Assembly (NCBI RefSeq): GCF_040183065.1
Contig: NC_091132.1
Span: 158,508,102 to 158,572,101, forward strand
Source of the DNA: Periplaneta americana
Taxonomy: Eukaryota; Arthropoda; Insecta; Blattodea; Blattidae
Direction: 5' to 3'
DNA length: 64,000 nt
Position 1 is the stretch's first letter; each line of letters begins with the position of its first letter. Under the pieces are notes generated by a model. That model searched no databases and was not told the origin of the DNA. It saw only the letters and a list, made by a program, of their open reading frames with translations. Both the position numbers and the translations under genes were made by a program. Below, piece by piece: positions 16,160 through 63,630 of this stretch.

Positions 16160-17489
16160 CGAGGGGGATCCAGGAAATAACGACCGTTTTGTTGTAATAA
16201 TTAAAAAAATATATTTATTTGAAAAAACAAAGTCTGTTACATAACTGAAGCTTCCTTTACTTCTCTACATAATCACCACCTACATTTAAACATTTGTCGT
16301 ATCTGTTCACTAGCTTTAGAATTCCCGTGTTATACTCCTCTGCCGCCAGTTCATTAAGCCAGGTGTTCACTGTCTTCTTCAACTCTTCATCACTTCCAAA
16401 ACGCGTACCACCCAGAAAGTCTTTCCGCTTAGTGAAAAGGTGAAAATCGCTAGGAGCAAGGTCTGGACTATAGGGCGGATGATCAAAGATTTCCCAACCG
16501 AATTGATCCAGCAATTCTCGAGTTGAAGCAGCAGTGTGCGGGCGAGTGTTGTCGTGAAGAAGCACAACTCCTCTCGAAAGCATTCCTCGCCTCTTGTTTT
16601 GGATGGCTCGCCGTAGTTTTCGTAAAGTCTCACAATAACGATTTGCATTGATCGTAGTGCCTTTTGGCATGAAATCCAGCAGAAGAACACCTTTGCGATC
16701 CCAAAAGACAGTAGCCATGACTTTTTGTGTTGAGAGAGTCTGTTTGAATTTTCTCGGTTTCTTGGGTGATGAGGGATGATGCCACTGACGTGATTGGTAG
16801 TTGGTCTCTGGGGTGTTGTGAGGCACCCAGGTCTCATCACCAGTCACAATTTGATTAAGAAAGACGTCTCCATCTGTGTGATCGCATCAAGAATTTCAGT
16901 GCTGAGGCCATTCTCTGAGTTTTGTATTGGTCACTCAGTTGCCGTGGAACCCATCGTGCACAGATTTTGTGGTAGCCAAGGTGTTGCGACACAATTTCAC
17001 CAAGCAAAGAACGAGAAATGTCAGGAAAGGCAATATGCAATTCGTCGAGTGATGTGCGCCTGTCTTGCAAGATTCTGTCGTTCACTTTAGTCTTCAGGTC
17101 TTCTGTGATGAGTGATGGGCGTCCGGGTTGAGTTTCATCGTGGACATTTGTTCGCCCATTTTTGAACATTTCGCACCATTTTCTCACATTTCTTTCATTC
17201 ATTACAGTATCACCATACACTTCTTTCAATTGCCGGTAAATTTCTGCAGGTTTCAAATGTCGGGCATTCAAAAATCGAATCACACTCCTCACCTCACAGT
17301 CGGCGGGATTATCAATCACTTCGTTCATTTTGAAGTAACACAAAATGCACAATGGCGACTTGTTGCTACCAGTACTCACAACATTATGAGAACACATGTT
17401 AAGGAAGCCAGTTGACCTTCAAACAAGGAAGGGGAGTCAGCTGCGTGGCGGGTATGGGCGAACGGTCGTTATTTCCTGGATCCCCCTCG
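16160..17489 (-). mobile_element. mariner transposon, nearly complete
   Basis: The ends CGAGGGGGATCCAGGAAATA (16160) and its exact complement ending at 17489 form terminal repeats of about 29 bp. TA follows the right end (17490-17491); the corresponding left dinucleotide now reads TC. The 1330-bp length is typical of mariner. Reading is leftward. Confidence 0.93.
16257..17328 (-). pseudogene. mariner DD34D transposase, one frameshift
   Basis: The frame from the ATG at 17328 begins MNEVIDNPADCEVRSVIRFL, with RQLKEVYGDTVMNERNVRKW (paired-like helix-turn-helix) and the PGRPS linker. It continues in a second frame near 16885 with VTGDETWV, VLLHDNTRPHTA and PPYSPDLAPSDFHLF, and ends GDYVEK at a TAA (16257). 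The three catalytic acidic residues (GDE, HDN, SPD) are all present with mariner spacing (DD34D). The only clear lesion is a single small indel between the DNA-binding and catalytic halves, so decay is much less than in the Tc1 copy. Confidence 0.92.
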
Positions 17490-21149: not shown

Positions 21150-24100
21150 ATGGCGGACTACGTAAATCAAATTAAGCATGTGTGCATGGCAGCCAACACT
21201 ACACTCGTTAGAGATGAGAGAAAAGCTGCGATCATGTATTTGAAAAGATAATAAATTGTAACTGTATGAAATCGTAGACGTAGTTTACAGACAGAACACC
21301 AGAGTCGCATTGACACTATGCTTCCAGCACAGGAAATCCGTACGGCAAAGAAACTGTTGACCAAACAAATCATTATCCGGGATCGATCCTCGTATAAATA
21401 CAATTCCATCAAACATGTATGAGTACGACAGATATGCAAATAGTCGCAAAACGAGAATACAGTACAAAATCCCCATTGACAGGACTGAGAGCACCTAGAG
21501 TGGACTGAGAGGACAGAGAGTGGACTGAGAGGTCAGAGAGGGGACTCAGAGGACAGAGAATGGACTGAGAGCACAGAGAGTAGACTGAGAGGACATAGAG
21601 TGGACTAACAATTCAGAGAGTGGAATATGAGAACAGAGAGTGGACTGGTTGGACTGTGAGTGGACTGAGAGAAAGCAGATTGGACTGAGGGGACAGAGAG
21701 TGGACTGAGAGGTCAAAGAGGAGACTCACAGGACAGAGAATGGACACAGAGGACAGAGAGTGGACTGAGAGGAAACAGATTGGACTGAGATGAGAGAGTG
21801 GACGGAGAGGACAGAGAGTAGACTGAGAGGACATAGAGTGGACGGAGAGGACAGAGAGTAGACTGAGAGGACATAGAGTGGACGGAGAGGACAGAGAGTA
21901 GACTGAGAGGACATAGAGTGGACTGAGAGGACAGAGAGTAGACTGAGAGATCAGAGAGTGAACTGGTTGGACTGTGAGTGGACTGAGAGGAAGCAGATTG
22001 GACTGAGAGGAGAGAGAGAGTGGACGGAGAGGAGACTGAGAGTTCAGAGAGTGAAATGGTTGGACTGTAAGTGGACTGAGAGGAAGCAGATTGGACTGAA
22101 AGGACACAGAGTGGACTGAGAGCACATAGAGTGGACTGAGAGGTCAGTGAGGGGACTCAGAAGACAGAGAATGGACTGAGAGGCCAGAGAGTAGACTGAG
22201 AGGACATAGAGTGGACTGAGAGGAGAGAGAGTGGACTGAGAGGACAGAGAGTGGACTGAGAGCACATAGAGTGGACTGAGAGTAGAGAGAGTGGACTGAG
22301 AGGTCAGAGAGTGGACTAAGAAGACAGAGAGTGGACTGAGAGGACAGAGAGTGGACTAAGAAGACAGAGAGGACGGGGAGTGGACTGCGAGGCCAAACAG
22401 TGGACTGAGAGGCCAGACAGTGCACTGCGAGGACATAGATTGGACTGAGAGTTCAGAGAGTAGACTGGTAGGACAGAGAGTGGAATGAGAGGAAACAGAT
22501 TGGACTGAGAGGAGAGAGAGTGGACAGAGAGGACAGAAAGTGGACTGAGAGTTCAGAGAGGGGACTGGTTGGACTGTGAGTGGACTGAGAGGAAGCAGAT
22601 TGGACTGAGAGGAGAGAGAGTGGACCGAGAGAACAGAAAGTGGACTGAGAGCACATAGAGTGGACTAAGAGGACAGAGAGGGGACTAAGAGGACAGAGAA
22701 TGGACTGAGAGGGCAGAGAGTAGACTGACAGGACACAGAGTGGACTGGAGGACTGACAGTGGACTGCGAGGACATAGAGTGGACTGTGAGATCAGGGAGT
22801 GGACTAGTAGCACAGAGTGGAATGAGAGGAAACAGATTGGACTGAGAACAGAGAGAGTGGACTGAGGGGACTGAGAGGTCAGAGAGGGGACTGCGGACAG
22901 AGAATGGACTGAGAGGCCAGAGAGTAGACTGAGACGACATAGAGTGTACTGAGAGGAGAGAGAGTGGACTGAGAGGACAAAGAGTGGACTCAGAAGACAT
23001 AGAGTGGACTGAGAGGACATAGAGTGGAGTGAGAGCACATAGAGTGGACTGAGAGTGGAGTGGACTGGTAGAATAGAGAGCGTAGTGACAGGACAGAGAT
23101 TGGACTGAGAGCACATAGATTGGACTGAGAGCACATAGAGTGGACTGAAAGTAGAAAGAGTGGACTGAGATGGCAAAGAGAGGGCTGAGAGTGGACTGGT
23201 AGGAAAGAGAGTGTGGTGACAGGACAGAGATTTAACTGAGAGCACATAGAGTGGGCTGTGTGTACAAAGAGTGAACTGAGATGACATACAGTGGACTGAG
23301 AGTGGTCTGGTAGGAAAGAGAGTGTAGTGACAGGACAGAGATTGAACTGAGAGCACATATATTGGACTGAGAGCACATAGAGTGGACTGAGAGTACAATT
23401 AGTTGAACTGAGATGACATAGAGTAGACTGAGAGGGCACTGGTAGGAAAGAGAGTGTAGTGACAGAACATAGTTGGTCTGAGAGCACATAGAATGGACTG
23501 AGAAGACAGAGAGTAAACTGAGAGGACATAGAGTGGACAGAAAGTGGTCTGGGAAGACAGCGTATGTAGTGACAGGACAGAGATTTGACTGAGAGCACAT
23601 AGTATGGACTGAGAAGACAGAGAGTGGACAAAAAGTGGTCTGGGAAGACAGCGTATGGAGTGACAGGACAGAGATTTGACTGAGAGCACATAGAATGGAC
23701 TGGGAGGACAGAGAATGGACTGGTAAGACAGAAGTGTAGTGACAGGAGAGAGATTGGAGTGAGAGCACACAGAGTGGACTGAGAGGACAGACAGTGGACT
23801 CAGAGGGCAGAGAGTGGACTGATAGGACATAGAGTGTAGTGACAGGACACAGATTGGACTAAGATCACATAGAGTGGACTGAGAGGACATGGAGTGGACT
23901 GACAAAGCAGAGTGGACTGAGATAGGACAGAGGGAAAAATTTGGACAGAGATAACAGAGAGTGGACTGAGAGAAATGATACCGGACTGAGAGTACAGAGA
24001 GTGGATTTAGAGTCCAGGACTGTGAGGACAATGAGTGGAGAGGACATTAAGTGGACTGAAAGAACATAGACAACTGAGGAGGCAGAAGGAGGATTGTAAG

Positions 24101-31302: not shown

Positions 31303-31532
31303 AAAAAATATTATGTTTTATTTAACGACACTCGCAACTGCAGAGGTTATATCAGCGTCGCCGGATGTGCCGGAATTTTGTCCCGCAGGAGTTCTTTTAC
31401 ATGCCAGTAAATCTATTGACATGAGCCTGTCGCATTTAAGCACACTTAAATGCCATCGACCTGGCCCGGGATCGAACCCGCAACCTTGGGCATAGAAGGC
31501 CAGCGCTATACCAACTTGCCAACCTGGTCGAC
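31303..31532 (-). mobile_element. tRNA-derived SINE, family C
   Basis: Full-length minus-strand copy. The complement reads head GGTATAGCGCTGGCCTTCTA, box B GGTTCGATCCCG and tail CGAGTGTCGTTAAATAAAAC. The direct repeats GATAGAATTATAT flank it (about 31288 and 31533). The right duplicate then merges into a (TA)n tract. Confidence 0.92.
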
Positions 31533-31537
31533 GATAG

Positions 31538-33616: not shown

Positions 33617-36600
33617 CATTTTCTTCTTTCCCGTACTAATAACTAGCAAGAATACAAGTCTCACTGAGGGGAATAATTTTCTTGAGCTCAACATATATTT
33701 CTGTTCTCTCTGTCTACTCTGTCATTTTCTTCTATGCCCTCTTAGTCCAATTTCTGTCCTTATAATCCTTTTTCTGTCCACTCAGTTCTCTATGTTCTCT
33801 TAGTCCACTCTCTGTCCTCTGAGTCCACTCTCTGGCCTCTCAGTCCACTCACTGTCCTCTCAGTTCACTCTATGTGCTCTAAGTCCACTCTCTCTTCTCT
33901 CAGTCCAATCTGGTTCCTCTCAGCCCACTCCCAGCCCAACCAGTCCACTCTCTGAACTCTCAGACCACTCTATGTCCCCTCAGTCCACTGTCTCACCTCT
34001 CAGTCCACTCTCTGTCCTACCAGTCCACTCTCTTAACTCTCGGTCCACTCTATGTCCTCGCAGTCCACTCTCTGGCCTCTCAGTCCACTCCCTGTCCTCT
34101 GATTCCATTCTATGTCCTCTGAGACCTCTCTCTGTCCTCTGAGTCCACTGTATGTTTTCTCAGTCCACTCTGCGCACTCAATCCACTCTAGATCCTCTCA
34201 GTCCACCCTGTCCTCTTAGTGCACTCTATATCCTTTCAGACAACTCTCTGTCCTTTCAGTCCAATCTATGTCCACTCAGAGCACTCTCTGATCTCAGTCC
34301 ACTCTATGTCCACTAGCTGTCATCTCAGCCCACTCTGTTCTCTCAGTCTAATCTATGTTCTCTCAGTCCATTCTCTCTCCTCTAAGTCCCCTATCTAACT
34401 TCTCAGTCCACTCTATCTACTCTCAGTCCACTCTCTGTGGACTCAGTCCACTCACTGTCCTCTCAGTCCACTCCCTCTCCTCTGAGTCCAATCTCTTTCC
34501 TCTCAGTCCACTCTGTCATACCAGTCCAGTCTATGTACTCTCAGTCCACTCTCTGGCCTCTATGTCCACTCTCTCATCTCTCAGTCCACTCTCTGTACTC
34601 ATATTCCACCCTCTGAACTCTTAGTCCACTGTATGTCCTCTCTGTCTAATCTCTGTCCTCTCAGTCCATTCTCTGTTCTCTGAGTCCTCTCTCTGCCCTC
34701 CCAGTCCCCTCCCTGAACTTTCAGTCCACTCTCTCTCCTCTCAGTACACTCTATGTGCTCTCAGTCCACTCTGTCCTCTCAGTTCACTCTCTCCTCTCAG
34801 TCCAATCTGCTTCCTCTCAGTCCACTCACAGTCCAACCAGTCCACTCTCTGAACACTCAGTCCACTCTCTGCCCTCTCAGTAAACTCTGTGTCCTCTGAT
34901 TCCACTCTCTGTCCTCTCAGTGCACTCTATGTTCTCTGAGTCTACTCTCTGTCCTCTAAGTCCACTCTGTGTCCTTTGAGTCCACACTATGGCCTCTCAG
35001 TCCACACTGTCCTCTCAGTACAATCTCTCTCCTCTCAGTCCAATCTATTTCCACTCATTCCACTCCCTGTCCTATCAGTCCACTCTATTTCCTCGCAGTC
35101 CACTGTCTGGTCTCTCAGCCCACTCTCTGTTTTCTGATTCCACACTCTGTTCTCTGAGTCCTCTCCCTGTCCTCTGAGTCCACTGTATGTCCTGTCAGTC
35201 CACTCTCTCCGAACTCAGTCCACTCTACATCCTCTCAGTCCACTCTGTCCTCTTAGTGCACTCTATATCCTTTCACACCACTCTATGTCCATTCAGAGTA
35301 CTCTCTGTCCACTCTCTGTTCTTTCAGTCCATTCCATGTCCACTGAGAGCACTCTCTGAACTCTCAGTCCACTTTCCGTGCTCTCAGTCTACTCTATGGC
35401 CTCTCAGTCCATTCTCTCTCCTCTCAGTCCAATCTCTCTTCTCCCAGTCCACTCTCTGTCCTCTGAGACCCCTCTGTGTCCTCTCGGCCAATCTATTTAC
35501 TCTCAGTCCACTGTATGTCCTCTCAGTCCACTGTTTGGCCCCTCTGTCCAGTCTCAGTCCTCTAATTCCACTCTCTGAACTCTCAGTCCACTCTATATAT
35601 TCCTTGTCTACTCTCTGTCCTCTGACTCCACTCTCTGACATCTCAATCCACTCTTTGTCCTCTCAGTCGACTCCTTGTGCTCTCAGTCCGCTCTCGGTCC
35701 ACTCTCTTTCATCTATGTCCTATGTGTTTCGTTTCAGTCCACTCTATGTCCTACCAGTCCTCTCTCTGAACTCTCGGTCCACTCTATATCCTCTCAATCC
35801 ACTATCCGGCTCTCAGTCCAGTCTCTGAACTCTCAGTCCAATCTATGTCCTCAGTCCACTTTCTGGCGTCTCAGTCCACTCTCTGTCCTCTAAGTCAACT
35901 TTATGTCCTCTAAAACCACATTTTGTCCTCCCAGTCCACTCTCAGTCATCTTAGTCCACTCTCTGTCCTCTCTGTCCACTCTATGTTCTCTCAGTCCACT
36001 CTCTGTCCTCTCTCTCACTTCTCAATCGACTCTATGTACTCTCAGTCCCCTCTCTGTGCTCTCAATCTACTCCCTGTCCTCTCAGTCCACTCTCTCTCCT
36101 CTGAATCCAATCTTTTTCCTGTCATTCCACTTTCTCTCTTACGAGTCCACTCTATGTACTCTCACACCATTGTCTGACCTCTCAGTCCACTCTATGTACT
36201 CATATTCCACTCTCTGAACTCCTAGTCCACTCTATGTTCTCTCAGTCTACTCTCTGTCCTCTCAGTCCATTCTCTGTCATCTGAGTCCCCTCTCCCAACT
36301 ATCAGTCCACTCTGTCCTCTCAGTCCACTCTATGTCTTCTCAGTCCACCCTCTGTACTCTCAGTACACTCTGTGTCCTTTCAGTCCACTCTATGTCTTCT
36401 CAGTCCACTCTGTGTCTTCTCACTCCACTCTGTCATCTCAGTCCACTCCCTGTCCTCTCAGTCCACTCTATGTCCTCTCAGTCCACTCTCTGTTCTCTCA
36501 GTAAACTCTGTGCCCTCTCAGTCCACTCCCTGTCTTCTCAGTCAACTCTATGTCCTCTCAGTCCACTCCCTATCTGCTCACTTCACTCTACATCCTCTCA

Positions 36601-37825
36601 GTCCACTCTATGTCATCTCAGTCTACTCTATGTCCTCTCAGTACACACTTTGTTCTCTCAGTACACCCTGTGTCCTCTCAGTACACTCTGTGTCATCTCA
36701 GTACACTCTGTGTCCTCTCAGTCCACTCCCTGTCCTCTCAGTCCACTCTATGTGATCTCAGTCCAATCTATGTCCTCTCAGTTCACCCTCTGTTCTCTCA
36801 GTCCACTCTGTTATCTCAGTACACTCTGTGTCATCTCAGTACAATCTGTGTTCTCTCTGTCCACTCCTTGTCTTCTCAGTCCACTCAATGCCATCTCTGT
36901 ACACTCTGTGTCGTCTCAGTCCACTCTATGTCACCTCAGTACACTCTGTGTCCTCTCAGTCCACTCCCTGTCTTCTCAGTCCACTATATGTCATCTCTGA
37001 ACACTCTATGTGCGCTCAGTCCACTCCCTGTCTTCTCAGTTCACTCCATGTCATCTCAGTACACTGTGTCCTCTCAGTCCACTCCATGTCATCTCAGTCC
37101 ACTCCCTGTCTTCTCTGTCCTCTCCATGTCCTCTTAGTCCACTCCCTATCTTCAGTCCACTGTCCTCTCAGTCCACCCTCTGTTCTCTCAGTACACTCTG
37201 TGACCTCTCAGTTCACTCCCTGCCTTCTCAGTCCACTCTATGTCCTCTCAGTCCACTCTGTGATCTCAGTACACCCTGTATCCTCTCAGTCCACTCCCTG
37301 CCTTCTCAGTCCACTCCCTGTCGTCTCAGTCCACTCTATGTCCTCTCAGTCCACTCTCTGTTCTCTCAGTCCACTCTCTGTTCTCTCAGTACACTCTCTG
37401 TCCTCTCAGTCCACTCCCTGTCTTCTGAGTCCACTCTATGTCATCTCAGTCCACTCCCTGTTCTCTCAGTACACTCTGTATCTTCTCAGTCCACTCCCTG
37501 TCTTCTCAGTCCACTCTATGTCCTCTCAGTCCACCCACTGTTCTCACTTACGTGTTCCAATAAATTACTTCTAAGGGAGAATCGAACCGTGGTATTAATG
37601 TGTTAGGTCAACACCTCCTTTGTCGTACGGGTTTCCTGAGCTGGACGCATCGTATGAATGCGACTCTGGTGTTCTGTCTATAAACTACGTCCACGATTTC
37701 ATAGTTACATCTAATTGGCGTTTCAAATACATGATTGCAGCCTTTCTCTCATCCCTAAATAGTGTAGTGTTGGTTGCCATGTATACATGCATAATTTTGA
37801 ATCACGCAGTACAACGATCTAGAAG
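33115..37825. repeat. Right arm of a giant inverted repeat
   Basis: This is the inverted counterpart of 21150-24690. Inner flank 33115-33700 and outer flank 37560-37825 pair with 24140-24690 and 21150-21470. The satellite between the flanks is about 1.2 kb longer here. A (TA)8 and a 42-base T-run (33557-33614) interrupt the inner flank. The outer edge is close to the insertion point of the P-like element at 37851. Confidence 0.75.
33700..37545 (+). repeat. 20-bp satellite array, plus orientation
   Basis: About 3.8 kb of CTCTCAGTCCACTCTCTGTC-like units. Variation is patchy: 36330-37540 is more homogeneous (CTCTCAGTCCACTCTATGTC against CTCTCAGTACACTCTGTGTC alternations) than 33700-36300. This suggests recent higher-order amplification there. 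The long serine/leucine-rich frames are by-products. Confidence 0.95.
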
Positions 37826-39934: not shown

Positions 39935-41060
39935 ATTTGTCGTTATTTACGTAAAAATGATGCGCAAAAAATAATAATAATTTCGTACACACTCTACATC
40001 CTATATATTCACATTTGTTTTTCAGTGATTTATTAAAGAATGTACCGGTATTTAAAAGACTAATAAATTAGAAACATGTTACATAAATCATCCTTGTGCC
40101 AAAAGAGAATGCTCCCTGGACCAAACTGTCGTATTTTGCAGTGGTCGTTAGTACTCGCTGAAATGGGTAATAATAATATAATAAAATAATGTTGTACGTA
40201 GCATTTAGAAACATGTTACATAAATCATCCTTGTGCCATAAGAGAATGCTTCCTGGACCAAATTATCGTATTTTGCAGTGGTCGTCAGTACTCGCTGAAA
40301 TGGGTCATAATATAATATAATTGTTTTGCACGTAGCAAGCGGGGTATTGGGGCTGCAAGCCCCCATGATGATCCTACGTGTAGCACATGATGTAAAAAGC
40401 AGGGTATCGGGGCTCCAAGCCCCGATGATGATCCGATGTGTAGCACATGATGTAAAAAGCGGGGTATCGGGGCTGCAAGCCCCGATGATGATCCGACGTG
40501 TAACACATGACGTAGAAAGCGGGATATCGGGGCTGCAAGCCCCGATGATGATCCGACGTGTAGCACATGATGTAAAAAGCGGGGTGTCGGGGCTGCAAGC
40601 CCCGATGATGATCCGACGCGTAGCACATGATGAAAAAAGTGGGGTATCGGGGCTGCAAGCCCCGATGATGATCTGACTTGTAGCACATGATGAAAAAAAG
40701 CGGGGTGTCGGGCACTTAAAAGTGCCTTTTCGAAAGCATGGTGATGCGCACTTGACAAACGCAGTGTACGTACTTTCTAATAATCCCTTTTTATTTTTCG
40801 TTATTTACGTAAAAATGATGCGCCAAAAAATAATAATAATTTCGTACTCACTCCACTTCCTATATTTACATTTGTTTTTCAGTGATTTATTAAAGAATGT
40901 ACCGGTATTTAAAAGACTAATAATTTAGAAACATGTTACATAAATCATCCTTGTGCCAAAAGACAATGCTTCCTGCACCAAATTATCGTATTTTGCAGTG
41001 GTCGTCAGTGCTCGCTGAAATGGGTAATAATATAATATAATTATGTTGTACGTAGCAAGA
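39935..41060 (+). repeat. Direct repeats around the 60-bp array
   Basis: A unit of about 270 bp at 39935-40203 (CGTTATTTACGTAAAAATGA, then GAATGTACCGGTATTTAAAA, then GAAACATGTTACATAAATCA) recurs at 40797-41050. Its second half also recurs at 40206-40340. The array at 40338-40712 is enclosed by them. Confidence 0.85.
40338..40712 (+). repeat. 60-bp hairpin-bearing tandem array
   Basis: About six units of exactly 60 bp. Each carries the palindrome TCGGGGCTGCAAGCCCCGA followed by TGATGATCCGACGTGTAGCA and CATGATGTAAAAAGCGGGGT. It is GC-rich in an AT-rich setting. Since 60 is a multiple of 3, frames stay open on both strands; the peptides are meaningless. Confidence 0.95.
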
Positions 41061-43021: not shown

Positions 43022-43156
43022 GTTCGACTTCCCCTCAGACTACTCTCTGTACTCACAATTCACTCTCTGTAATTTCTGTCCACTCTGTACTCTTAGTCCT
43101 CTTTCTGTCCTCTTAGTACACTCTCGGTCCTCAGTCCATTTTCTTTCCTCTCAGTC

Positions 43157-43195
<39 letters not shown>

Positions 43196-43795
43196 CTCTC
43201 AGTCTACTCTCTATCCCCTCCGTCTACCCTTGTTCACTCTCTAGTCTCTCAGCCTACTCACCACTCTCTTGTCACTCAGTTCAGTCTCTGTTCTCTTAGC
43301 TTACTCCCTATCCCTCAGTGCTCTATCCATCCTCTCAGTCCACGGTTTGCCTTTCAGACCAGTCTCTGTCCTCTCATCTACTCTCTGTACTCTTAGTTCA
43401 CTGTATGTACTCTTAGTTCACTGTATGTACTTAGTTCACTGTATGTACTCTTAGTTCACTGTATGTACTATCCATCCGCTTTCTGTACTCTCAGTTCACT
43501 CTCTGTAATCTCAGATCACTTTCTGTCTTCTCAATCCACCCTCTGTACTCTAATTCCAGTCTCTGTTCTCTCAGTCCACTGTCTTCTGTCTGTCCACTGT
43601 CTGTATTCTCAGTTCTTTCAGTCTACTATCTGTGCTCTCAGTCCACTCTCTGCACTCACAGTCCTCTCTCTTTCTTCTCATCCACTCTCTGTACTCTCAG
43701 TTCACTCTCTGTATTCTCAGATCATTCTCTGTTCTCTCAATCTACTCTCTATACCGGTACTCTAATTCCAGTCTCTGTTCTCTCAGTTCTTACAA
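43022..43795 (+). repeat. 20-bp satellite, third and most diverged array
   Basis: CTCTGTACTCTCAGTTCACT-type units, with a pure (CT)n run at 43163-43191 and a local TGTACTCTTAGTTCACTGTA amplification at 43395-43460. It has the same strand orientation as 33700-37545 but none of that array's flanks. Confidence 0.85.
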
Positions 43796-45594: not shown

Positions 45595-45779
45595 AAGGAG
45601 TACACAAGAAACTAAGAATGTTGCTCTCAACACATTCTTTCAATATTATGCAAGAAGGTCTGACTTCAAATATTACCCTATATAATTGACGGCAAATACA
45701 TAAAGTCATATTTATATGCGGATGATCTTGCTATAACAATTACTGGATATGATAGATTGAAAATTATTCATGATCTTGA
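45595..45779 (+). pseudogene. Non-LTR reverse transcriptase, part 1 (YADD box)
   Basis: The frame gives SYLYADDLAITITGYDRLKI, then IHDL. YADD is the catalytic motif of the reverse transcriptase. Upstream (45600-45700) a decayed GV...LLSTHSFNIMQEGL segment fits the preceding motif. The coding line breaks at 45779 and resumes at 55483 with DAINRKIEDWCSANSLCLKK. The giant palindrome therefore sits within this gene. Confidence 0.85.
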
Positions 45780-45824
45780 GTAGTATTAAAATGACGGTCA
45801 CATGACTGGCTCCCATGGCTCCCC

Positions 45825-46140
45825 ATGTGACGTCAGAAGTGGGCGTGGCCAAAGTATTGCGTCATAGTGGGCGTGGCAAGTGACGTCATGGGCGTGGCCA
45901 AAGTATGGCGTCATAGAGGGGGGGGTTTAAAGTATGACGTCACGGAGGGGGTAGAGGGCTTAAATTATGACGTAGGAAAGGGGCGTAACTTAAATTACGT
46001 CAAGGTTAAAGTGTGACGTCATGCAGGTATGTAATGGCATGACAAGTTTATCTCCTCAATGTGGAAATTATGACGTAAGAAAGGGGCGTAACGTCATAAA
46101 TGGCAATCTAAGCGTTCAAGGTTAAAGTGTGACGTGCAGG
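45825..46140. repeat. Subterminal TGACGTCA / GGGCGTGGCC array, left arm
   Basis: TGACGTCA (or a one-base variant such as TGACGTAA) occurs about eight times in 320 bp. It is interspersed with GTGGGCGTGGC and CAAAGTATxGCGTCATA units. The mirror array is at 55110-55430. It is the most GC-rich part of the element and lies where transposase or host-factor binding sites are expected. Confidence 0.85.
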
Positions 46141-47064
46141 TATGTAATGGCATGACAAGTTCATACATGTTTATCTCATCAATGTTGCTATGTGTTCAAA
46201 TATAATGCTGAGTCATATCCGGCAATTGTTCTCAGGTGAAAGACACAAGTTCATACATGTTTGAAAACTGCTATGTGTGCAAATATTATGCAAGGTCACA
46301 TCCGGCGAAGAATTAATCTATCACACTTAAACACATACATTCTTTTTCTTAAGATTCTAATGTAATGGTAATTTAATTGATTGGGGAATGGGTGTTGGAA
46401 TGTGGGACATAAATGGATAAAAAATTAATCTAGCACACTTGTAAATTAAACAGGATGTGGCTGAAGTGACGTTATAAATTTGTAATTGAAGTTGGAAATG
46501 GGGGAGGGGGGTAAAAATGTACTTTAAGCCAATTGTTGAGTAATTGATAAAAAATATTAAGATTCTAATGTACTGGTAATTGAATTGATAAATAGTAATG
46601 GGAAATGGAAATTGGAATGTGGGAATTATTGATGGCGTAAATGGTTGTACTTTAAGCCAATTTATAAAAAAATTAATCTAGCACATTTGTAAATTAAACA
46701 CATACATTCTTCTCATATTATTCCAATGTAATACATTTTGAGTGGTTTCTTTAGCGTATTTAATTTAAGCCATACATTATTACCAACATTAAATTCATCA
46801 GAATGTGACATTATTATGATTTAGAGCAGTAATTGTAGCAGATAAATCAACGTAGATGTATATGTTGTGTAACGCAGACGTGTGCAAATATTATGCAAGC
46901 TTGCTGAATCACTTCCGGCGACGATGCAATTGCTGAGTAATGATAAAAGCATGTTCTTTAAGCACCTGCAACATGTCATATTACACAAATATTGCACGAT
47001 GCAAATAATATGCAAGCTGTTAATTCACATGCGGTGAAGACGCAAGTGCTGAATAATGGCCACC

Positions 47065-47098
<34 letters not shown>

Positions 47099-49199
47099 GG
47101 TTCCAATTTAATACATTTTGAAGTAACATTTATTGGATAGATTAATAATTTAATACATTTTGAAGTAACATTTATTGCATGTATTTTAAGCAATACATTA
47201 TTACCGAAGCAGTTCGTAATATAGTAATTGCTTCTTCTTCTTCTTCTCATTATTATTATTATTCGTCATAAAGAAGATTAAAGTGCGACGTTATAAATAT
47301 GTAATTGAAGTTGGAGTAATTGAAGTTGGAAATGGGGGGGGGGATTTGATAAAATTCTAATGTAGTAGTAATTTAATTGATAAATAGTAATGGGTAAGGG
47401 AAATTCGCAAGTGTTAATTGACATTGGAATGGGGGAATTATTTATGGCGTAAATGGTTGTACTTTAAGCCAATTTATAAAATGTTAATTGAAATCGGAAT
47501 GGGGGAATTATTTATGGCGTAAATGGTTGTACTTTAAGCCAATTTATAAAAAAATTAATCTAGCACACTTGTAATTTAAACACATACATTCTTCTCATTT
47601 TATTATTATTCCAATGTAATACATTTTGAAGTAAAATTGAGTGGTTTGTTTAGCGTATTTAATTTAAGCCATACATTATTACCAACATTAAATTCATCAG
47701 AATGTGACATTATTATTTCGTAATACAGTAATTGTAGCAGATAAATCAATGTAGATGTATATGTTGTGTAATGTTATTACATATGCATAAGTGTGCAAAT
47801 ATTATGCAAGCTTGCTGAATCACTTCCGGCGACGATGCAATTGCTGAGTAATGATATAAATATGTTTTTGAAACACGTGGAACGTGTTATATTACACAAA
47901 TATTGCATGATGCAAATAACATGCAAGCTGTTAATTGACATCCGGCGTCTTATGTTACACAAATATTGTATTCATTACAAGTAAATAATAGCTATCTGCT
48001 ATGTGTGCAAATATTATGCAATGTCACATCCGACGATGAAATTGCTGAGTATTGATAAAAAACATGTTTTTGATAATGACCTTGGAGGTAATATGGCTGG
48101 ATGACGAGGTGAATTATTTAGAAGTGTAATGAAAGAAGTATTGCAGTTTGGAATAATTGACATTGAACAAGTTTAGACAGCAGTGGGAGGGGGAGGCAAG
48201 ATGATGAATAATACGCTCGAATTTATACAACTATTACAATATCACATATTTTATAAAAGATCTTTGTCAAAAAAAAAATGGTAGTGTAATAGCAGCCATA
48301 GCGTTAATAATGTCTCACAATATATATTTTTTATTTTAATTTAGATGATACTGCATCTCCAGTATCGGTTTGAGCTGAAGAAGAAGAAATCGCACATTTT
48401 AAATGCTCTGAGTGTAAAAAAAAAGTGACCATGATGAAGCGTGGTGAATGTTAAGCTTGATTATGAAGAATGTTCGAATTGTAATAAATGTTCTTTTTGG
48501 AAATAGTTTTGCACTGTAATTTCTTCTATGTCTTAACCATCCATTTCCATCTCACATAACCAAAGGGTTGGGTTCGTTTAGAGAATTAAACTATAACACT
48601 TTCCTTTCAGATATTAGTAATCCTTTTCCAATATTGAGAATTGGTATATAGGTTTTTCAAATATTAATAATCCTTAAGAATTGGTGTATAAGTTGAGATT
48701 ATTCTAAACATATATGTTGCAAGAATATAACATAATTCCAGTGGTAGCTTATTGATTTGGGAGCGATGGATTCATTACATGTTTGTATGATAAAACCTGA
48801 GGATAATTGAGAGAATGTCAATGATTAAACTGAACCTAGTCATTGGGGATGGGGATGTGCTAGGTAAAAGAAAATAGTAACAACATAAAATTATGCGTAT
48901 ATATTTATTCATAAAAAGAAATACAATGCATTGAGTATTGAAATATATTTTCAGTTAGTGAATCCCAATTGTGATAATGTTTTCACCAAAATTGAAGAAA
49001 TTTCTTCCAAATTATACACATAACTGATGATAAATAATTTTTCCACACCCTTTGTATAAACACAACCAATAAGATGGCGCCAAGTGACGGGGTGTTTTCA
49101 GCATCCTTGCTGCAAATTGCCATGGAGACGGCGAGTTCATTTAAAATGCAGTTGTTTGTCCAAGCTTCTCGGAAACCATGTATATCATAATAGACGTTC

Positions 49200-49480
49200 T
49201 GAAAAAAAACGGTGTAGCATCATACATATTGTAAATTGTATAATGTCACAGAAAATAGTAACACATACTTACATTTTTAAATATATGAAAGCACTTTATA
49301 CATAATCCAATAGGAAACCTTGTACATCAATGGACGTCCTGAAACAAAATAAAAATGTGTAGCATGGTACTTATTGTAAATTATGTCACAGAAAAAAGTA
49401 ACACATACTTACATTTTTAAACATGTGATATGAGTAAAAGCACTTTATACATAATCCAATAAGACACTTTGAACATTGTG
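49200..49480 (-). repeat. Tandem segment with splice-like borders, left arm
   Basis: Mirror of 51520-51800. On the minus strand two units read ...TTTCAG/(G/A)ACGTC...GGATTATGTATAAAGTGCTTT...TTTAAAAAT/GTAAGTATG. Confidence 0.75.
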
Positions 49481-49640
49481 TTCGAACAACGCTCTTACAC
49501 CCTTTTTGCACACATCTCCTCCGACTTTTGAATGGGATATATTGTACCAAATGATTTATACCATCATATCGAGATTCTCTACTGTTATATGTAATCGGAG
49601 AACAAGTTAGTCTCACACCCGCTTTCTTTGTGATAAACAT
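49386..49640 (-). CDS. Cysteine-rich domain frame, left arm copy
   Basis: An 84-residue frame starting MFITKKAGVRLTCSPITYNS, then INHLVQYIPFKSRRRCVQKG, then CKSVVRTQCSKCLIGLCIKC and FYSYHMF. The spacing C-x4-C-x7-C-x2-C-x5-C-x2-C-x4-H resembles the zinc-binding C-terminal domain of piggyBac-type transposases (GLCxxxCFxxYH). In this copy the final His is kept. It directly adjoins the 39-bp repeats and ends at a GTAAGT-like donor. It may be the last trace of a transposase or of captured coding sequence. Confidence 0.5.
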   Translation of the reverse strand: MFITKKAGVRLTCSPITYNSRESRYDGINHLVQYIPFKSRRRCVQKGCKSVVRTQCSKCLIGLCIKCFYSYHMFKNVSMCYFFL

Positions 49641-51345
49641 TGCAACTGATACGAAAATCGTAATCTTGTGACATATACGTTACAACTTGTTGAAAATCGT
49701 AATCTTGTGACATATACGTCACAGCTTGTCGAAAATCGTAATCTTGTGACATATACGTTACACATTGTCGAAAATCGTAATCTTGTGACGTATACGTTAC
49801 ACTTTGTCGAAAATCGTAATCTTGTTGCGATAATGCAACACCATGTAGAAAATCGTAATCTTGTGACATATATGTTACAACTTGTCGAAAATCGTATTCT
49901 TGTTGCGATAATGCAACACCATGTAGAAAATCGTAATCTTGTGACATATATGTTACAACTTGTCGAAAATCGTATTCTTGTTGCGATAATGTAACACCAT
50001 GTCGAAAATCGTAATCTTGTGACATATATGTTACAACTTGTTGAAAATCGTATTCTTGTTGCGATAACGCAACACCATGTCGAAAATCGTAATCTTGTGA
50101 CATATATGTTACAACTTGTCGAAAATCGTATTCTTGTTGCGATAATGCAACACTATGTCGAAAATCGTAATCTTGTGACATATATGTTACACCTTGTCGA
50201 AAATCGTAATCTTGTGACATATACGTTACACCTTGTCGAAAATCGTAATCTTGTGACATATATGTTACACCTTGTCGAAAATCGTAATCTTGTGACATAT
50301 ACGTTACACTTTGTCGAAAATCGTATTCTTGTGACATATATGTTACACCTTGTCGAAAATCGTAATCTTGTGACATATACGTTACACCTTGTCGAAAATC
50401 GTATTCTTGTTGCGATAATGCAACACAATGTCGAAAATCGTAATCTTGTGACATATATGTTACAACTTGTCGAAAATCGTATTCTTGTTGCGATAATGCA
50501 ACACCATGTCGAGAATGATTTTCTACAAGTTGTAACGTATATGTCACAAGATTACGATTTTTGACAAGGTGTAACGTATATGTCACAAGATTACGATTTT
50601 CGACAAGGTGTAACATATATGTCACAAGAATACGATTTTCGACAAGGTGTAACGTATATGTCACAAGATTACGATTTTCGACAAGTTGTAACATATATGT
50701 CACAAGATTACGATTTTCGACATGGTGTTGCATTATCGCAACAAGAATACCATTTTCGACAAGGTGTAACGTATATGTCACAAGATTACGATTTTCGACA
50801 AGGTGTAACATATATGTCACAAGATTACGATTTTCGACAAGGTGTAACATATATGTCACAAGATTACGATTTTCGACATGGTGTTGCATTATCGCAAAAA
50901 GAATACGATTTTCGACAAGTTGTAACATATGTCACAAGATTACGATTTTCGACATGGTGTTGCATTATCGCAACAAGAATACGATTTTCAACAAGTTGTA
51001 ACATATATGTCACAAGATTACGATTTTCGACATGGTGTTACATTATCGCAACAAGAATACGATTTTCGACAAGTTGTAACATATATGTCACAAGATTACG
51101 ATTTTCTACATGGTGTTGCATTATCGCAACAAGAATACGATTTTCGACAAGGTGTAACGTATATGTCACAAGATTACGATTTTCGACAAGGTGTAACGTA
51201 TATGTCACAAGATTACGATTTTCGACAAGCTGTAACGTGTATGTCACAAGATTACGATTTTCGACAAGGTGTAACGTATATGTCACAAGATTACGATTTT
51301 CGACAAGTTGTAACGTATATGTCACAAGATTACGATTTTCGTATC
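49640..51345. repeat. Central 39-bp minisatellite, inverted at 50516
   Basis: On the right side units read ATTTTCGACAAGGTGTAACG, then TATATGTCACAAGATTACG (39 bp). A variant unit has GGTGTTGCATTATCGCAAC. On the left side the same units run in complement. Since 39 is a multiple of 3, all frames stay open: one gives 13-residue repeats VTYMSQDYDFRQG and VALSQQEYDFRQV, the other strand VENRNLVTYTLHL. The junction of the two orientations is GTCGAGAATG/ATTTTCTACAAG. Confidence 0.95.
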
Positions 51346-51352
51346 AGTTGCA

Positions 51353-51613
51353 ATGTTTATCACAAAGAAAGCGGGTGTGAGACTAACTTGTTCTCCGATT
51401 ACATATAACAGTAGAGAATCTCGATATGATGGTATAAATCATTTGGTACAATATATCCCATTCAAAAGTCGGAGGAGATGTGTGCAAAAAGGGTGTAAGA
51501 GCGTTGTTCGAACACAATGTTCAAAGTGTCTTATTGGATTATGTATAAAGTGCTTTTACTCATATCGTATGTTTAAAAATGTAAGTATGTGTTATTTTTT
51601 TTCTGTGACATAA
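51353..51613 (+). CDS. Cysteine-rich domain frame, right arm copy
   Basis: Mirror of 49386-49640 with the same C-x4-C-x7-C-x2-C-x5-C-x2-C spacing. The putative last ligand now reads Arg (FYSYRMF instead of FYSYHMF) and the C-terminal residues past the donor-like site differ (FFSVT). The difference shows that the two arms have diverged slightly. Confidence 0.5.
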   Translation: MFITKKAGVRLTCSPITYNSRESRYDGINHLVQYIPFKSRRRCVQKGCKSVVRTQCSKCLIGLCIKCFYSYRMFKNVSMCYFFSVT

Positions 51614-51800
51614 TTTACAATAAGTACCATGCTACACATTTTTATTTTGTTTCAGGACGTCCATTGATGTACAAGGTTTCCTATTGGATTATGTATAAAG
51701 TGCTTTCATATATTTAAAAATGTAAGTATGTGTTACTATTTTCTGTGACATTATACAATTTACAATATGTATGATGCTACACCGTTTTTTTTTTTTTCAG
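51520..51800 (+). repeat. Tandem segment with splice-like borders, right arm
   Basis: Two units of about 130 bp. Each contains ATTGGATTATGTATAAAGTG, then TTTAAAAAT/GTAAGTATGTG (donor-like), then ATTTACAATA and CATGCTACAC, then a T-rich run ending TTTCAG (acceptor-like, 51654 and 51800). A following exon-like tract starts ACGTCTATTATG. Confidence 0.75.
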
Positions 51801-53198
51801 AACGTCTATTATGATATACATGGTTTCCGAGAAGCTTGGACAAACAACTGCATTTTAAATGAACTCGCCGTCTCCATGGCAATTTGCAGCAAGGATGCTG
51901 AAAACACCCCGTCACTTGGCGCCATCTTATTGGTTGTGTTTATACAAAGGGTGTGGAAAAATTATTTATCATCAGTTATGTGTATAATTTGGAAGAAATT
52001 TCTTCAATTTTGGTGAAAACATTATCACAATTGGGATTCACTAACTGAAAATATATTTCAATACTCAATGCATTGTATTTCTTTTTATGAATAAATATAT
52101 ACGCATAATTTTATGTTGTTACTATTTTCTTTTACCTAGCACATCCCCATCCCCAATGACTAGGTTCAGTTTAATCATTGACATTCTCTCAATCATCCTC
52201 AGGTTTTATCATACAAACATGTAATGAATCCATCGCTCCCAAATCAATAAGCTACCACTGGAATTATGTTATATTCTTGCAACATATATGTTTAGAATAA
52301 TCTCAACTTATACACCAATTCTTAAGGATTATTAATATTTGAAAACCTATATACCAATTCTCAATATTGGAAAAGGATTACTAATATCTGAAAGGAAAGT
52401 GTTATAGTTTAATTCTCTAAACGAACCCAACCCTTTGGTTATGTGAGATGGAAATGGATGGTTAAGACATAGAAGAAATTACAGTGCAAAACTATTTCCA
52501 AAAAGAACATTTATTACAATTCGAACATTCTTCATAATCAAGCTTAACATTCACCACGCTTCATCATGGTCACTTTTTTTTTACACTCAGAGCATTTAAA
52601 ATGTGCGATTTCTTCTTCTTCAGCTCAAACCGATACTGGAGATGCAGTATCATCTAAATTAAAATAAAAAATATATATTGTGAGACATTATTAACGCTAT
52701 GGCTGCTATTTCACTACCAATTTTTTTTTTGACAAAGATCTTTTATAAAATATGTGATAGTGTAATAGTTGTATAAATTCGAGCGTATTATTCATCATCT
52801 TGCCCCCCCCTCCCACTGCTGTCTAAACTTGTTCAATGTTAATTATTCCAAACTGCAATACTTCTTTCATTACACTTCTAAATAATTCACCTCGTCATCC
52901 AGCCATATTACCTCCAAGGTCATTATCAAAAACATGTTTTTTATCAATACTCAGCAATTTCATCGTCGGATGTGACATTGCATAATATTTGCACACATAG
53001 CAGATAGCTATTATTTACTTGTAATGAATACAATATTTGTGTAACATAAGACGCCGGATGTCAATTAACAGCTTGCATATTATTTGCATCATGCAATATT
53101 TGCGTAATATAACACGTTCCACGTGTTTCAAAAACATATTTTTATCATTACTCAGCAATTGCATCGTCGCCGGAAGTGATTCAGCAAGCTTGCATAAT

Positions 53199-53439
53199 AA
53201 AAAATGTTAAATGTTATGTTTTATTTAACGACGCTCGCAACTGCAGAGGTTATATCAGCGTCGCCGGATGTGCCGGAATTTTGTCCCGCAGGAGTTCTTT
53301 TACATGCCAGTAAATCTACTGACATGAGCCTGTCGCATTTAAGCACACTTCAATGCCATCGACCTGGTCCGGGATCGAACCCGCAACCTTGGGCATAGAA
53401 GGCTAGCGCTATACCAACTTGCCAACCAGGTCGACGCTT
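53199..53439 (-). mobile_element. SINE family C inserted in the right arm only
   Basis: Full-length copy with head, box B (complement of GGGATCGAACCCGC) and (TTTAAC) tail. It is flanked by GCTTGCATAAT at 53188-53198 and 53440-53450. The left arm has an uninterrupted GTGATT...CACAC-type sequence at the mirror site (near 47790-47830), so the SINE arrived after the palindrome formed. Confidence 0.95.
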
Positions 53440-54150
53440 GCTTGCATAATATTTGCACACTTATGCATATGTAATAACATTACACAACATATACATCTAC
53501 ATTGATTTATCTGCTACAATTACTGTATTACGAAATAATAATGTCACATTCTGATGAATTTAATGTTGGTAATAATGTATGGCTTAAATTAAATACGCTA
53601 AACAAACCACTCAATTTTACTTCAAAATGTATTACATTGGAATAATAATAAAATGAGAAGAATGTATGTGTTTAATTTACAAGTGTGCTAGATTAATTTT
53701 TTTATAAATTGGCTTAAAGTACAACCATTTACGCCATAAATAATTCCCCCATTCCAATTTCAATTAACATTTTATAAATTGGCTTAAAGTACAACCATTT
53801 ACGCCATAAATAATTCCCCCATTCCAATGTCAATTAACACTTGCGAATTTCCCTTACCCATTACTATTTATCAATTAAATTACTACTACATTAGAATTTT
53901 ATCAAATCCCCCCCCCCCATTTCCAACTTCAATTACTCCAACTTCAATTACATATTTATAACGTCGCACTTTAATCTTCGTTATGACGAATAATAATAAT
54001 AATGAGAAGAAGAAGAAGCAATTACTATATTACGAACTGCTTCGGTAATAATGTATTGCTTAAAATAAATCCAATAAATGTTACTTCAAAATGTATTAAA
54101 TTATTAATCTATCCAATAAATGTTACTTCAAAATGTATTAAATTGGAACC

Positions 54151-54151
<1 letters not shown>

Positions 54152-54186
<35 letters not shown>
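54152..54186. repeat. (ATA)n tract, right arm
   Basis: The mirror tract (TTA)n is at 47067-47097 in the left arm. The two differ slightly in unit number, as expected of independently drifting microsatellites. Confidence 0.85.
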
Positions 54187-54187
<1 letters not shown>

Positions 54188-55109
54188 GGTGGCCATTATT
54201 CAGCACTTGCGTCTTCACCGCATGTGAATTAACAGCTTGCATATTATTTGCATCGTGCAATATTTGTGTAATATGACATGTTGCAGGTGCTTAAAGAACA
54301 TGCTTTTATCATTACTCAGCAATTGCATCGTCGCCGGAAGTGATTCAGCAAGCTTGCATAATATTTGCACACGTCTGCGTTACACAACATATACATCTAC
54401 GTTGATTTATCTGCTACAATTACTGCTCTAAATCATAATAATGTCACATTCTGATGAATTTAATGTTGGTAATAATGTATGGCTTAAATTAAATACGCTA
54501 AAGAAACCACTCAAAATGTATTACATTGGAATAATATGAGAAGAATGTATGTGTTTAATTTACAAATGTGCTAGATTAATTTTTTTATAAATTGGCTTAA
54601 AGTACAACCATTTACGCCATCAATAATTCCCACATTCCAATTTCCATTTCCCATTACTATTTATCAATTCAATTACCAGTACATTAGAATCTTAATATTT
54701 TTTATCAATTACTCAACAATTGGCTTAAAGTACATTTTTACCCCCCTCCCCCATTTCCAACTTCAATTACAAATTTATAACGTCACTTCAGCCACATCCT
54801 GTTTAATTTACAAGTGTGCTAGATTAATTTTTTATCCATTTATGTCCCACATTCCAACACCCATTCCCCAATCAATTAAATTACCATTACATTAGAATCT
54901 TAAGAAAAAGAATGTATGTGTTTAAGTGTGATAGATTAATTCTTCGCCGGATGTGACCTTGCATAATATTTGCACACATAGCAGTTTTCAAACATGTATG
55001 AACTTGTGTCTTTCACCTGAGAACAATTGCCGGATATGACTCAGCATTATATTTGAACACATAGCAACAATGATGAGATAAACATGTATGAACTTGTCAT
55101 GCCATTACA

Positions 55110-55430
55110 TACCTGCACGTCGCACTTTAACCTTGAACGCTTAGATTGCCCTTTATGACGTTACGCCCCTTTCTTACGACATAATTTCCACATTGAGGAG
55201 ATAAACTTGTCATGCCATTACATACCTGCATGACGTCACACTTTAACCTTGACGTAATTTAAGTTACGCCCCTTTCCTACGTCATAATTTAAGCCCTCCA
55301 CCCCCTCCGTGACGTCATACTTTAAACCCCGCCCCCTCTATGACGCCATACTTTGGCCACGCCCATGACGTCACTTGCCACGCCCACTATGACGCAATAC
55401 TTTGGCCACGCCCGCTTCTGACGTCACATG
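55110..55430. repeat. Subterminal TGACGTCA / GGCCACGCCC array, right arm
   Basis: Complement of 45825-46140, with a few single-base differences (for example CGCCCGCTTCTGACGTCA here against AGAAGTGGGCG on the left). Confidence 0.85.
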
Positions 55431-55475
55431 GGGAGCCATGGGAGCCAGTCACGTGACCGTCATTTTAATACTACT

Positions 55476-55662
55476 ATCTTGATGCAATCAACCGAAAAAT
55501 AGAAGATTGGTGTTCAGCTAATTCTCTTTGCTTAAAGAAAGAGAAGATACAGAACTTAGAGTTTTCCTTAAACAATAGAATCAATTGTAAAGAATCTGTC
55601 AAATTTGTAGTAGTGCATATACAATCTACACTTAAATGGGACTGTCATATTGACATACTATC
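55476..55662 (+). pseudogene. Non-LTR reverse transcriptase, part 2
   Basis: The frame continues from part 1 as DAINRKIEDWCSANSLCLKK, then EKIQNLEFSLNN and FVVVHIQSTLKWDCHIDILS. W-C-x-x-N-x-L-x-L(N)-x-x-K is the region that follows YADD in jockey/CR1-type enzymes. It is interrupted by the SINE at 55663. Confidence 0.85.
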
Positions 55663-62284: not shown

Positions 62285-63369
62285 CTAATCAATATGTTGG
62301 CGTTTGTGTATTTTAAGGTTATTCGACTGCGCAAAGCACTTTCCACAAACATCGCATTTGTATGGTTTCTCACCAGTATGCTGGCGTATGTGTTGTTGTA
62401 TATGACTTTGGGTCGAAAAACACTTTCCACAAACATCGCATTTGAATGGTTTCTCACCAGTATGCCGCCGTATGTGGACTTTCAGGTTAGTAAGAAGCGA
62501 GAAGCACTTCCCGCAATCATTGCATCTGAATGGTTTGTCACCTATGTGAACCCGTTCATGCCTTCTCAGAGTATTTCTCCGTGAGAAGCACTTTCCACAG
62601 GTATGACAGCTGAATGGTTTTTCACCAGTATGAATGCGATCATGACACTTTAAGCCACTCTGATCCAAGAAGCACTTCCCACAAACAACGCACTGGTATG
62701 ATTTAATTCCAGTATGCCGCCGTTTGTGGATTTCTAGAGAAGCAAAAACAGAGTAACATTTATCACAATCATCGCATTTGAATGGTTTCTCACCAGTGTG
62801 GAGACGTTCATGTATTTTAAGATTAGTACTTTGAGAAAAACACATTCCACAAAATTGGCATTTGAATGGTTTTTCATCAGTATGAGTGCGACCATGGTAA
62901 TGTAAGCTGCTCCGTTGCGAAAAACACTTACCACAAACATCGCATTTAAATGGTTTGTCGCCAGTATGAAACCGAAAATGACACTTTAAGCTACTACGTT
63001 GTGAAAAACACTTTCCACAAACATCACATTTCAATGGTTTCTCGCTCGTGTGTTGCAGTTTGTGCGATGTTAGTGAATTTTCATGAGAGAAACACAATCC
63101 ACACACACCGCATTTGAATGGATCCTCGCCCTTGTGCAGCAGGCATGTATGTTTTTTTAAGGTATCCGACGAAGAGAAACATTTTCCACAGATACCGCAT
63201 GTGATCAGCTTAGCACCTGCACTACGGAGCAACATTTTTGCTGGCGAAGCAGAAAGTTTGGCAGTCTGATTGATAGTAGTGAGCTCTTCCTTTGGAAATC
63301 CTTCGCAGTACGATAATACAGATTTGTCATGTGTGTCTGCAATCCTTGATACACTTCTGTCATTGGTGT
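62285..63369 (-). CDS. Zinc-finger gene 2, terminal exon, eleven C2H2 fingers
   Basis: A probable nuclear DNA-binding transcription regulator. The exon encodes a linker (DTNDRSVSRIADTHDKSV...) of about 70 residues and then eleven C2H2 fingers in a row. The first is LITCGICGKCFSSSDTLKKH and the last YKCDVCGKCFAQSNNLKIHK. Most fit C-x2-C-x12-H-x3-H joined by HTGEKPF-type linkers. Some linkers are altered (HTSEKPL, HTDEKPF, HTGIKSY, HIGDKPF), and fingers 3 and 4 share the same QRSSL contact region, suggesting a recent duplication. The frame is open to 63502, but an acceptor TATGATAGTTTTGCAG/ACACC puts the exon start at 63369; earlier residues are probably intron. Upstream exons lie beyond the window. 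The stop is in the linker after finger 11. Confidence 0.9.
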
Positions 63370-63630
63370 CTGCAAAACTATCATAAAAATATATCATTAG
63401 TCTATGAAAGTCACATGAATTCAGTACGGATACTGTAAAATGTTGCGACATCACACATTTTTTTACAGTTTTTAGTGTGTAACTTTCTAGGCGGCTATAC
63501 ATTTTATTCTTTTCTTGTTACAATGTAACATTTACCTTTTTTAAGCATAATCCAATAATTACTTTTTGTGTATACTTAAAAACGAAAATATTTACAAAGC
63601 ACAAATCCTGTCTGATGTCACATTTTTAGT

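Follow-up and report, generated by a model that had tools for sequence, protein, structure and literature searches.

A 9.7-kb palindrome with Maverick/Polinton-like ends that recurs as a mobile element in the genome of Periplaneta americana

Foldback elements such as FB and Galileo are non-autonomous, are made up nearly entirely of long inverted repeats, have tandem repeats inside and, in the P/Galileo type, are flanked by 7-bp duplications. The symmetric adenovirus-12 recombinant SYREC is reportedly a defective palindromic genome with the same replicon end on both sides, for which protein-primed replication is expected. For vertebrate Mavericks (Polintons), the available part of PMC8097293 gives (AGT)2//(ACT)2 as the commonest ends, reports perfect 6-bp target-site duplications and terminal repeats of 46–1,447 bp for intact elements, and ties the repeated end triplet to jumping back in protein-primed replication. 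Fungal invertron-type mitochondrial plasmids are described in the accessible part of PMC1864894 as linear DNA with a terminal protein, for which panhandle-shaped intermediates have been proposed and which give inverted repeats on integration. Here, a 64,000-nucleotide stretch of the Periplaneta americana genome (NC_091132.1, positions 158,508,102 to 158,572,101, forward strand; hereafter the window) was analyzed, which holds a palindromic element of 9,697 bp (AGTAGT...ACTACT) at 45779..55475. This palindrome moves as a palindrome, and we consider it, with a probability of about 0.7, to belong to a Maverick/Polinton-like family as a non-autonomous member that is palindromic throughout and that a polymerase provided in trans would copy in the form of a self-complementary hairpin.

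The window element resembles FB and Galileo in its general build, whereas its family differs from them in duplication length and end sequence, and its relatives carry a polymerase, with no cut-and-paste transposase seen. Unlike SYREC, the window palindrome is integrated at many genome sites. The long inverted repeats of the fungal plasmids, again according to the accessible part of PMC1864894, are flanking mitochondrial DNA, which sets them apart from the arms described here. AGTAGT-type ends, perfect 6-bp duplications, long terminal repeats and a type-B DNA polymerase in relatives are shared with Mavericks/Polintons as characterized in the available parts of PMC8097293 and PMC10328495, while the palindromy of the element throughout is a difference. 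No description of a palindromic Maverick or a palindromic non-autonomous Polinton turned up in the literature searched, which included few subscription papers.

The left arm (45779..50516, + strand) and the right arm (50518..55475, − strand), which mirrors it and holds an extra 252-bp insertion, are separated by a single nucleotide at the centre (central arms 50104-50516 and 50518-50930). Outside the central minisatellite the arms are 99.4% identical (23 substitutions in 3,855 aligned bases, 0.6%), and the whole-arm alignment including the minisatellite contains 83 substitutions and 478 gap columns in 5,087. This agrees with an earlier sequence-only reading of the window, in which 4.7-kb arms were said to mirror each other end to end; the extent proposed there (45780..55475) was accurate at the right end and missed the first base at the left, as the symmetric element starts at 45779. 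The minisatellite has a 39-bp unit and forms two arrays arranged head to head around the centre (49652..51341), with the order of unit variants partly mirrored: four successive units follow the same order in both arms and the others differ. The right-arm insertion (53189..53451 with its flanking repeat, − strand) is tRNA-SINE-like, as judged by eye, is bounded by a repeated CTTGCATAATA and has a 97% copy elsewhere in the window (31306-31533). This insertion is confined to the right arm, so the two arms represent separate stretches of the chromosome and the palindrome predates the insertion. The terminal zone of the left arm (45779..46129, + strand) has 47% G+C over 350 bp and carries four TGACGTCA sites, as does the terminal zone of the right arm (55125..55475, − strand); 8 of the 9 such sites in the window fall in these two zones, which may represent a binding-site cluster.

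The symmetric ends of the element read AGTAGTATTAAAATGACGG...CCGTCATTTTAATACTACT, with A...T as the outermost symmetric pair, and they are flanked by a perfect (6/6) duplication of ATCTTG at 45773..45778 and 55476..55481 (both + strand). The 7-bp duplication suggested earlier (or 8 bp with one mismatch) is thus replaced by one of 6 bp, a seventh base appearing to match only since A is both the first base of the element and the next base of the target. On the two strands of the window together there are 23 AGTAGT sites, the two element ends counted, and at this frequency of 0.00018 per position chance would not be expected to place one precisely at each symmetric end. Removal of the element together with one 6-mer leaves an open stretch in which a match to the reverse-transcriptase family RVT_1 (PF00078) spans the junction, with an E-value of 3.6e-5 and 24.0 bits, under the Pfam cut-off of 29.6 bits. 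The earlier proposal that excision restores a reverse-transcriptase frame is corrected in that a 6-mer takes the place of the 7-mer.

In order to see whether these ends recur, as the sequence-only reading had proposed, the outer 200 bp were searched against the host genome (3.23 Gb, 91 contigs); 593 candidates were obtained. Scoring covered 40 of them and the listing comprises 41 matches, which makes all counts lower bounds. The listed matches include at least 14 inverted pairs, approximately 5–12 kb apart, and 12 single sites, one of which (B) turned into a pair once the surrounding sequence was fetched, while the opposite ends of two others (Y and R) were not found in the guessed intervals fetched. 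The end pairs examined (n = 15) were the window element (W) and copies A, B, C, D, G, H, I, J, K, L, P, Q, U, and X, with 11 single sites outside this set. A perfect 6-bp duplication flanks 14 of the 15 pairs and L has 5/6 (P and Q were judged by eye). Within the terminal repeats, places scoring 6/6 are self-complementary hexamers, and the outermost place, at AGTAG, was taken as the end. Copies start with AGTAG[A/T], with point changes in the left end of A and the right end of B. The duplications of the 14 perfect pairs are all distinct except for ATCGCC, common to D and K. These two copies (L037/L038 and L048/L049) lie at different places on C1, and their common duplication could reflect chance or a target preference. 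The ends, which the sequence-only reading could assign to no nameable family, therefore carry the AGTAGT sequence and 6-bp duplications that the available part of PMC8097293 gives as marks of Mavericks, and same-end relatives encode a DNA polymerase B. The terminal 19-mer had no matches in viral contigs and two other arm motifs had no matches either, and in prokaryote contigs the 19-mer had one exact match, in a Clostridium bin, where about 2 would be expected by chance in 257 Gb by our estimate.

These observations also bear on whether the element could be a foldback derivative of a cut-and-paste superfamily, for instance a piggyBac-like one using TTAA or a P/Galileo-like one with 7-bp duplications. 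TTAA does sit just inside each end of the window element, in line with the former; it is missing at the corresponding place in copies starting with AGTAGATAAG or AGTAGAATAC, and in most of the other copies TTAA is lacking close to the end. The duplicated sequence at the window element is not TTAA at the very ends but ATCTTG outside AGTAGT, and a duplication of 6 bp, not 7, lies outside AGTAG in 14 of 15 pairs. Moreover, no transposase match was found among the arm frames scanned, for which 38 arm sequences were compared with Pfam (these include mirror images and overlapping versions of the same frame, and short frames were covered in part). No scanned arm frame reached the Pfam cut-off, and the lowest E-values (MxiM 0.002, MHC_II_beta 0.024, IBR 0.075) were judged to be chance. 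Taken together, we regard a cut-and-paste origin as very improbable.

A target duplication alone is insufficient proof that a palindrome is mobile as a unit, and the proof comes from the centre, which is shared between sites. The 30-bp centre junction of the window element (50504..50533, + strand) was matched at 33 genome sites (exactly at 23, with a single mismatch at 9 and with two mismatches at 1), compared with 0 for a reversed-pattern control. Inspection of 11 centre sites (those of W, G, and K and eight others) showed opposed minisatellite units in every case, with L072 keeping a single unit on the right. The recurrence of one centre at 33 sites demonstrates that the palindrome itself is mobile, which substantiates the earlier claim that it was integrated as one unit. 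Near-perfect palindromes are a recognized source of assembly artefacts, and an inverted read or a haplotype chimera could in principle mimic such a structure, but this is hardly credible here, given that unrelated flanks are joined by the target duplication, the SINE-like insertion occurs in one arm only and the same centre is found at 33 sites on many contigs.

The minisatellite is arranged head to head at or near the centre in 9 of the 15 pairs (W, A, C, G, H, I, K, P, and U), and these nine copies have six different centre junctions: W, G, and K have one in common, H and I a second, P a third that also lies inside the polymerase-bearing copies D and B, and A, C, and U others. The arms of P, for which the centre and both arms were fetched, are 99.5% identical over 3.5 kb; for U the ends and the centre were fetched. 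In I the orientation switch lies off centre, apparently owing to another insertion in one half. This copy has a 530-aa open frame (L044:4546-6135) with a DUF659 match, hAT-like by a weak second match, and apparently another transposon was inserted there. The number of junctions raises the question of whether each palindrome arose independently, by a non-palindromic parent folding back at the minisatellite, and such a route would also fit the short head-to-head minisatellite junction already contained in D and B. Against this, W, G, and K have one junction, present at 33 sites in all, and H and I have another; because junctions are shared in this way, repeated new formation was not the main route for the shared centre types, though several events may have occurred, and as a general explanation it appears improbable. 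For the centre type of the window element itself, the 33 sites that have it rule out independent formation as the chief origin.

Two of the 15 end pairs, D and B, carry a gene for a type-B DNA polymerase, which is absent from the window element. DNA_pol_B_2 (PF03175) had 54 matches in the genome and was detected in none of 14 control genomes. Copy D (12.2 kb, on C1) contains one of these matches, in an open frame of at least 1,151 aa, and a 677-aa piece of the frame matches PF03175 (E-value 7e-27) as well as PF02945 (endonuclease VII; E-value 5e-6). The endonuclease-VII-like segment stands directly before the polymerase domain in this frame (L037:3078-6530) and is also found in the first frame of B. 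In copy B (10.7 kb, on C10; duplication TAATTT) two frames are 93–94% identical in amino acids to the piece from D, and its terminal repeat is 96.6% identical to that of the window element over the outer 740 bp. Four other genome copies resemble the D piece at 91% (two), 90% (one) and 72% (one). The search for an encoding copy, in which the sequence-only reading expected a transposase, thus yielded no transposase copy and a polymerase-encoding one instead. D and B have long terminal repeats and the same ends as the window element, and the polymerase is predicted to be protein-primed, based on family membership and end sequences. The terminal repeats of non-palindromic copies are alike too (D 97% over 1.8 kb, J 99.3% over 2.5 kb), which is compatible with hairpin copying or gene conversion. 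An inner arm segment of the window element (48029..49653, + strand) is wholly or partly common to A, C, G, H, J, and K (90–99%) and has no counterpart in D.

The arms are near-identical within copies. Over the outer 700 bp of nine copies, the two arms of one copy are 98.9–100% identical, while different copies are 86–97% identical, except for H and I (99%). In a tree of an 880-bp inner segment, built from W, A, C, G, H, K, and P (J was dropped as only its left arm matched, and I and U were not included), both arms of a palindrome are neighbours in 7/7 cases, five of them strongly supported; the pairing of G lacks support, given the near-identity of G and K, and the arms of K do not differ from each other. 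W, G, and K probably share their centre by descent, and as the arms of W group together and not with those of G or K, the arms would have been equalized after these copies parted. The arms have therefore been equalized repeatedly.

Gene conversion is known to keep palindrome arms alike, and the main rival explanation is that the same mobile element has its arms homogenized by ordinary conversion in the chromosome, as in sex-chromosome palindromes, with no hairpin in transposition. The within-copy arm pairing in the tree (7/7) is what conversion would produce. The 23 arm differences of the window element, judged by copy A, comprise 10 changes in the left arm, 9 in the right, 4 undecided and none unlike both, and a 10:9 split is the expectation if the arms were identical at insertion; these 19 assignable differences, like the SINE-like insertion that stays uncorrected in one arm, are mild evidence against conversion, which, as an explanation without a hairpin, we hold to be rather unlikely.

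The ends and the recurrent centre suggest that the element is copied as a folded version of itself. In the mechanism we propose, a polymerase and its terminal protein, supplied in trans, would begin copying at AGTAGT by jumping back, and the displaced self-complementary strand would fold into a 4.7-kb hairpin with its tip inside the minisatellite. Copying around this tip would restore the duplex, and since one arm would be templated by the other, each new copy would start with identical arms. An integrase from another element could then insert the copy with a 6-bp stagger.

Several aspects weigh against this interpretation. Similar arms are also expected from gene conversion in the chromosome, hairpin copying being what we infer. 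The ends are also present in B, D, J, L, Q, and X, which are non-palindromic at the centre in the sequence fetched, so palindromy is not required for movement. The polymerase assignment of D rests on one Pfam family: a whole-frame scan missed PF03175, and the 677-aa piece had no polymerase match among PDB sequences and NCBIfam. None of the 54 PF03175 places lies in copy B, whose scanned frames also lack a PF03175 match, and its polymerase is recognized by likeness to D. While an rve-type integrase is termed universal in Mavericks (in the available part of PMC10328495), no integrase match was found in the frames scanned in the arms, in D and in B (of B three frames only, in parts), nor, in contrast to Mavericks/Polintons, was any capsid, ATPase or protease match found there, in searches that were not exhaustive. 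Of 2,111 integrase candidates in the genome 150 places were scored, none inside D, with the nearest approximately 12 kb beyond its left end. By our reading, little space is left in D for an integrase, as most of it is taken up by the polymerase, the terminal repeats, the minisatellite and an unmatched frame of 184 aa. The element is called Maverick-like because its membership is incomplete in this respect, the integrase having been sought and not found in the element or D in a non-exhaustive search. A more tentative possibility is a self-synthesizing family with a polymerase-endonuclease gene and no integrase, accompanied by palindromic satellites that replicate as single self-complementary hairpins; both arms would be renewed from one at every transposition, making these satellites a genome-resident counterpart of defective snap-back genomes with a concerted evolution of their own.

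For Maverick-like elements, protein-primed replication is expected and hard to observe, and palindromic satellites with freshly equalized arms are the footprint expected of hairpin copying, which makes it testable. The copies also indicate that palindromes of approximately 9–12 kb can be mobile and are tolerated at many sites in an animal genome, and their insertions could possibly be dated by arm divergence, allowing the survival of long palindromes to be studied.

Each arm further contains a Cys-rich open frame of 84 aa (49386..49640, − strand; mirror copy 51353-51613, + strand) that is probably a relic and has no family match above the cut-off. A likeness of this 84–86 aa frame to the piggyBac C-terminus, which would favour a piggyBac-like origin, was considered and dropped, as Pfam, NCBIfam, PDB sequences and a large protein search gave no support. 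Elsewhere in the window, two mariner/Tc1-like transposase relics are found on the minus strand, one at 10172-11008 (HTH_Tnp_Tc3_2 and DDE_3) and one at 16257-17418 (Transposase_1 and DDE_3), and a 410-aa open frame on the same strand (62285-63517) encodes a C2H2 zinc-finger array with ten zf-C2H2 stretches. A 60-bp tandem repeat is present in approximately 6 copies at 40337-40712. A 20-bp tandem repeat, GGACTGAGAGGACAGAGAGT, and its reverse complement form long arrays at 21482-24005 and 33773-37545 (also 43084-43754), which lie in opposite orientations approximately 10 kb apart and show a strong strand skew.

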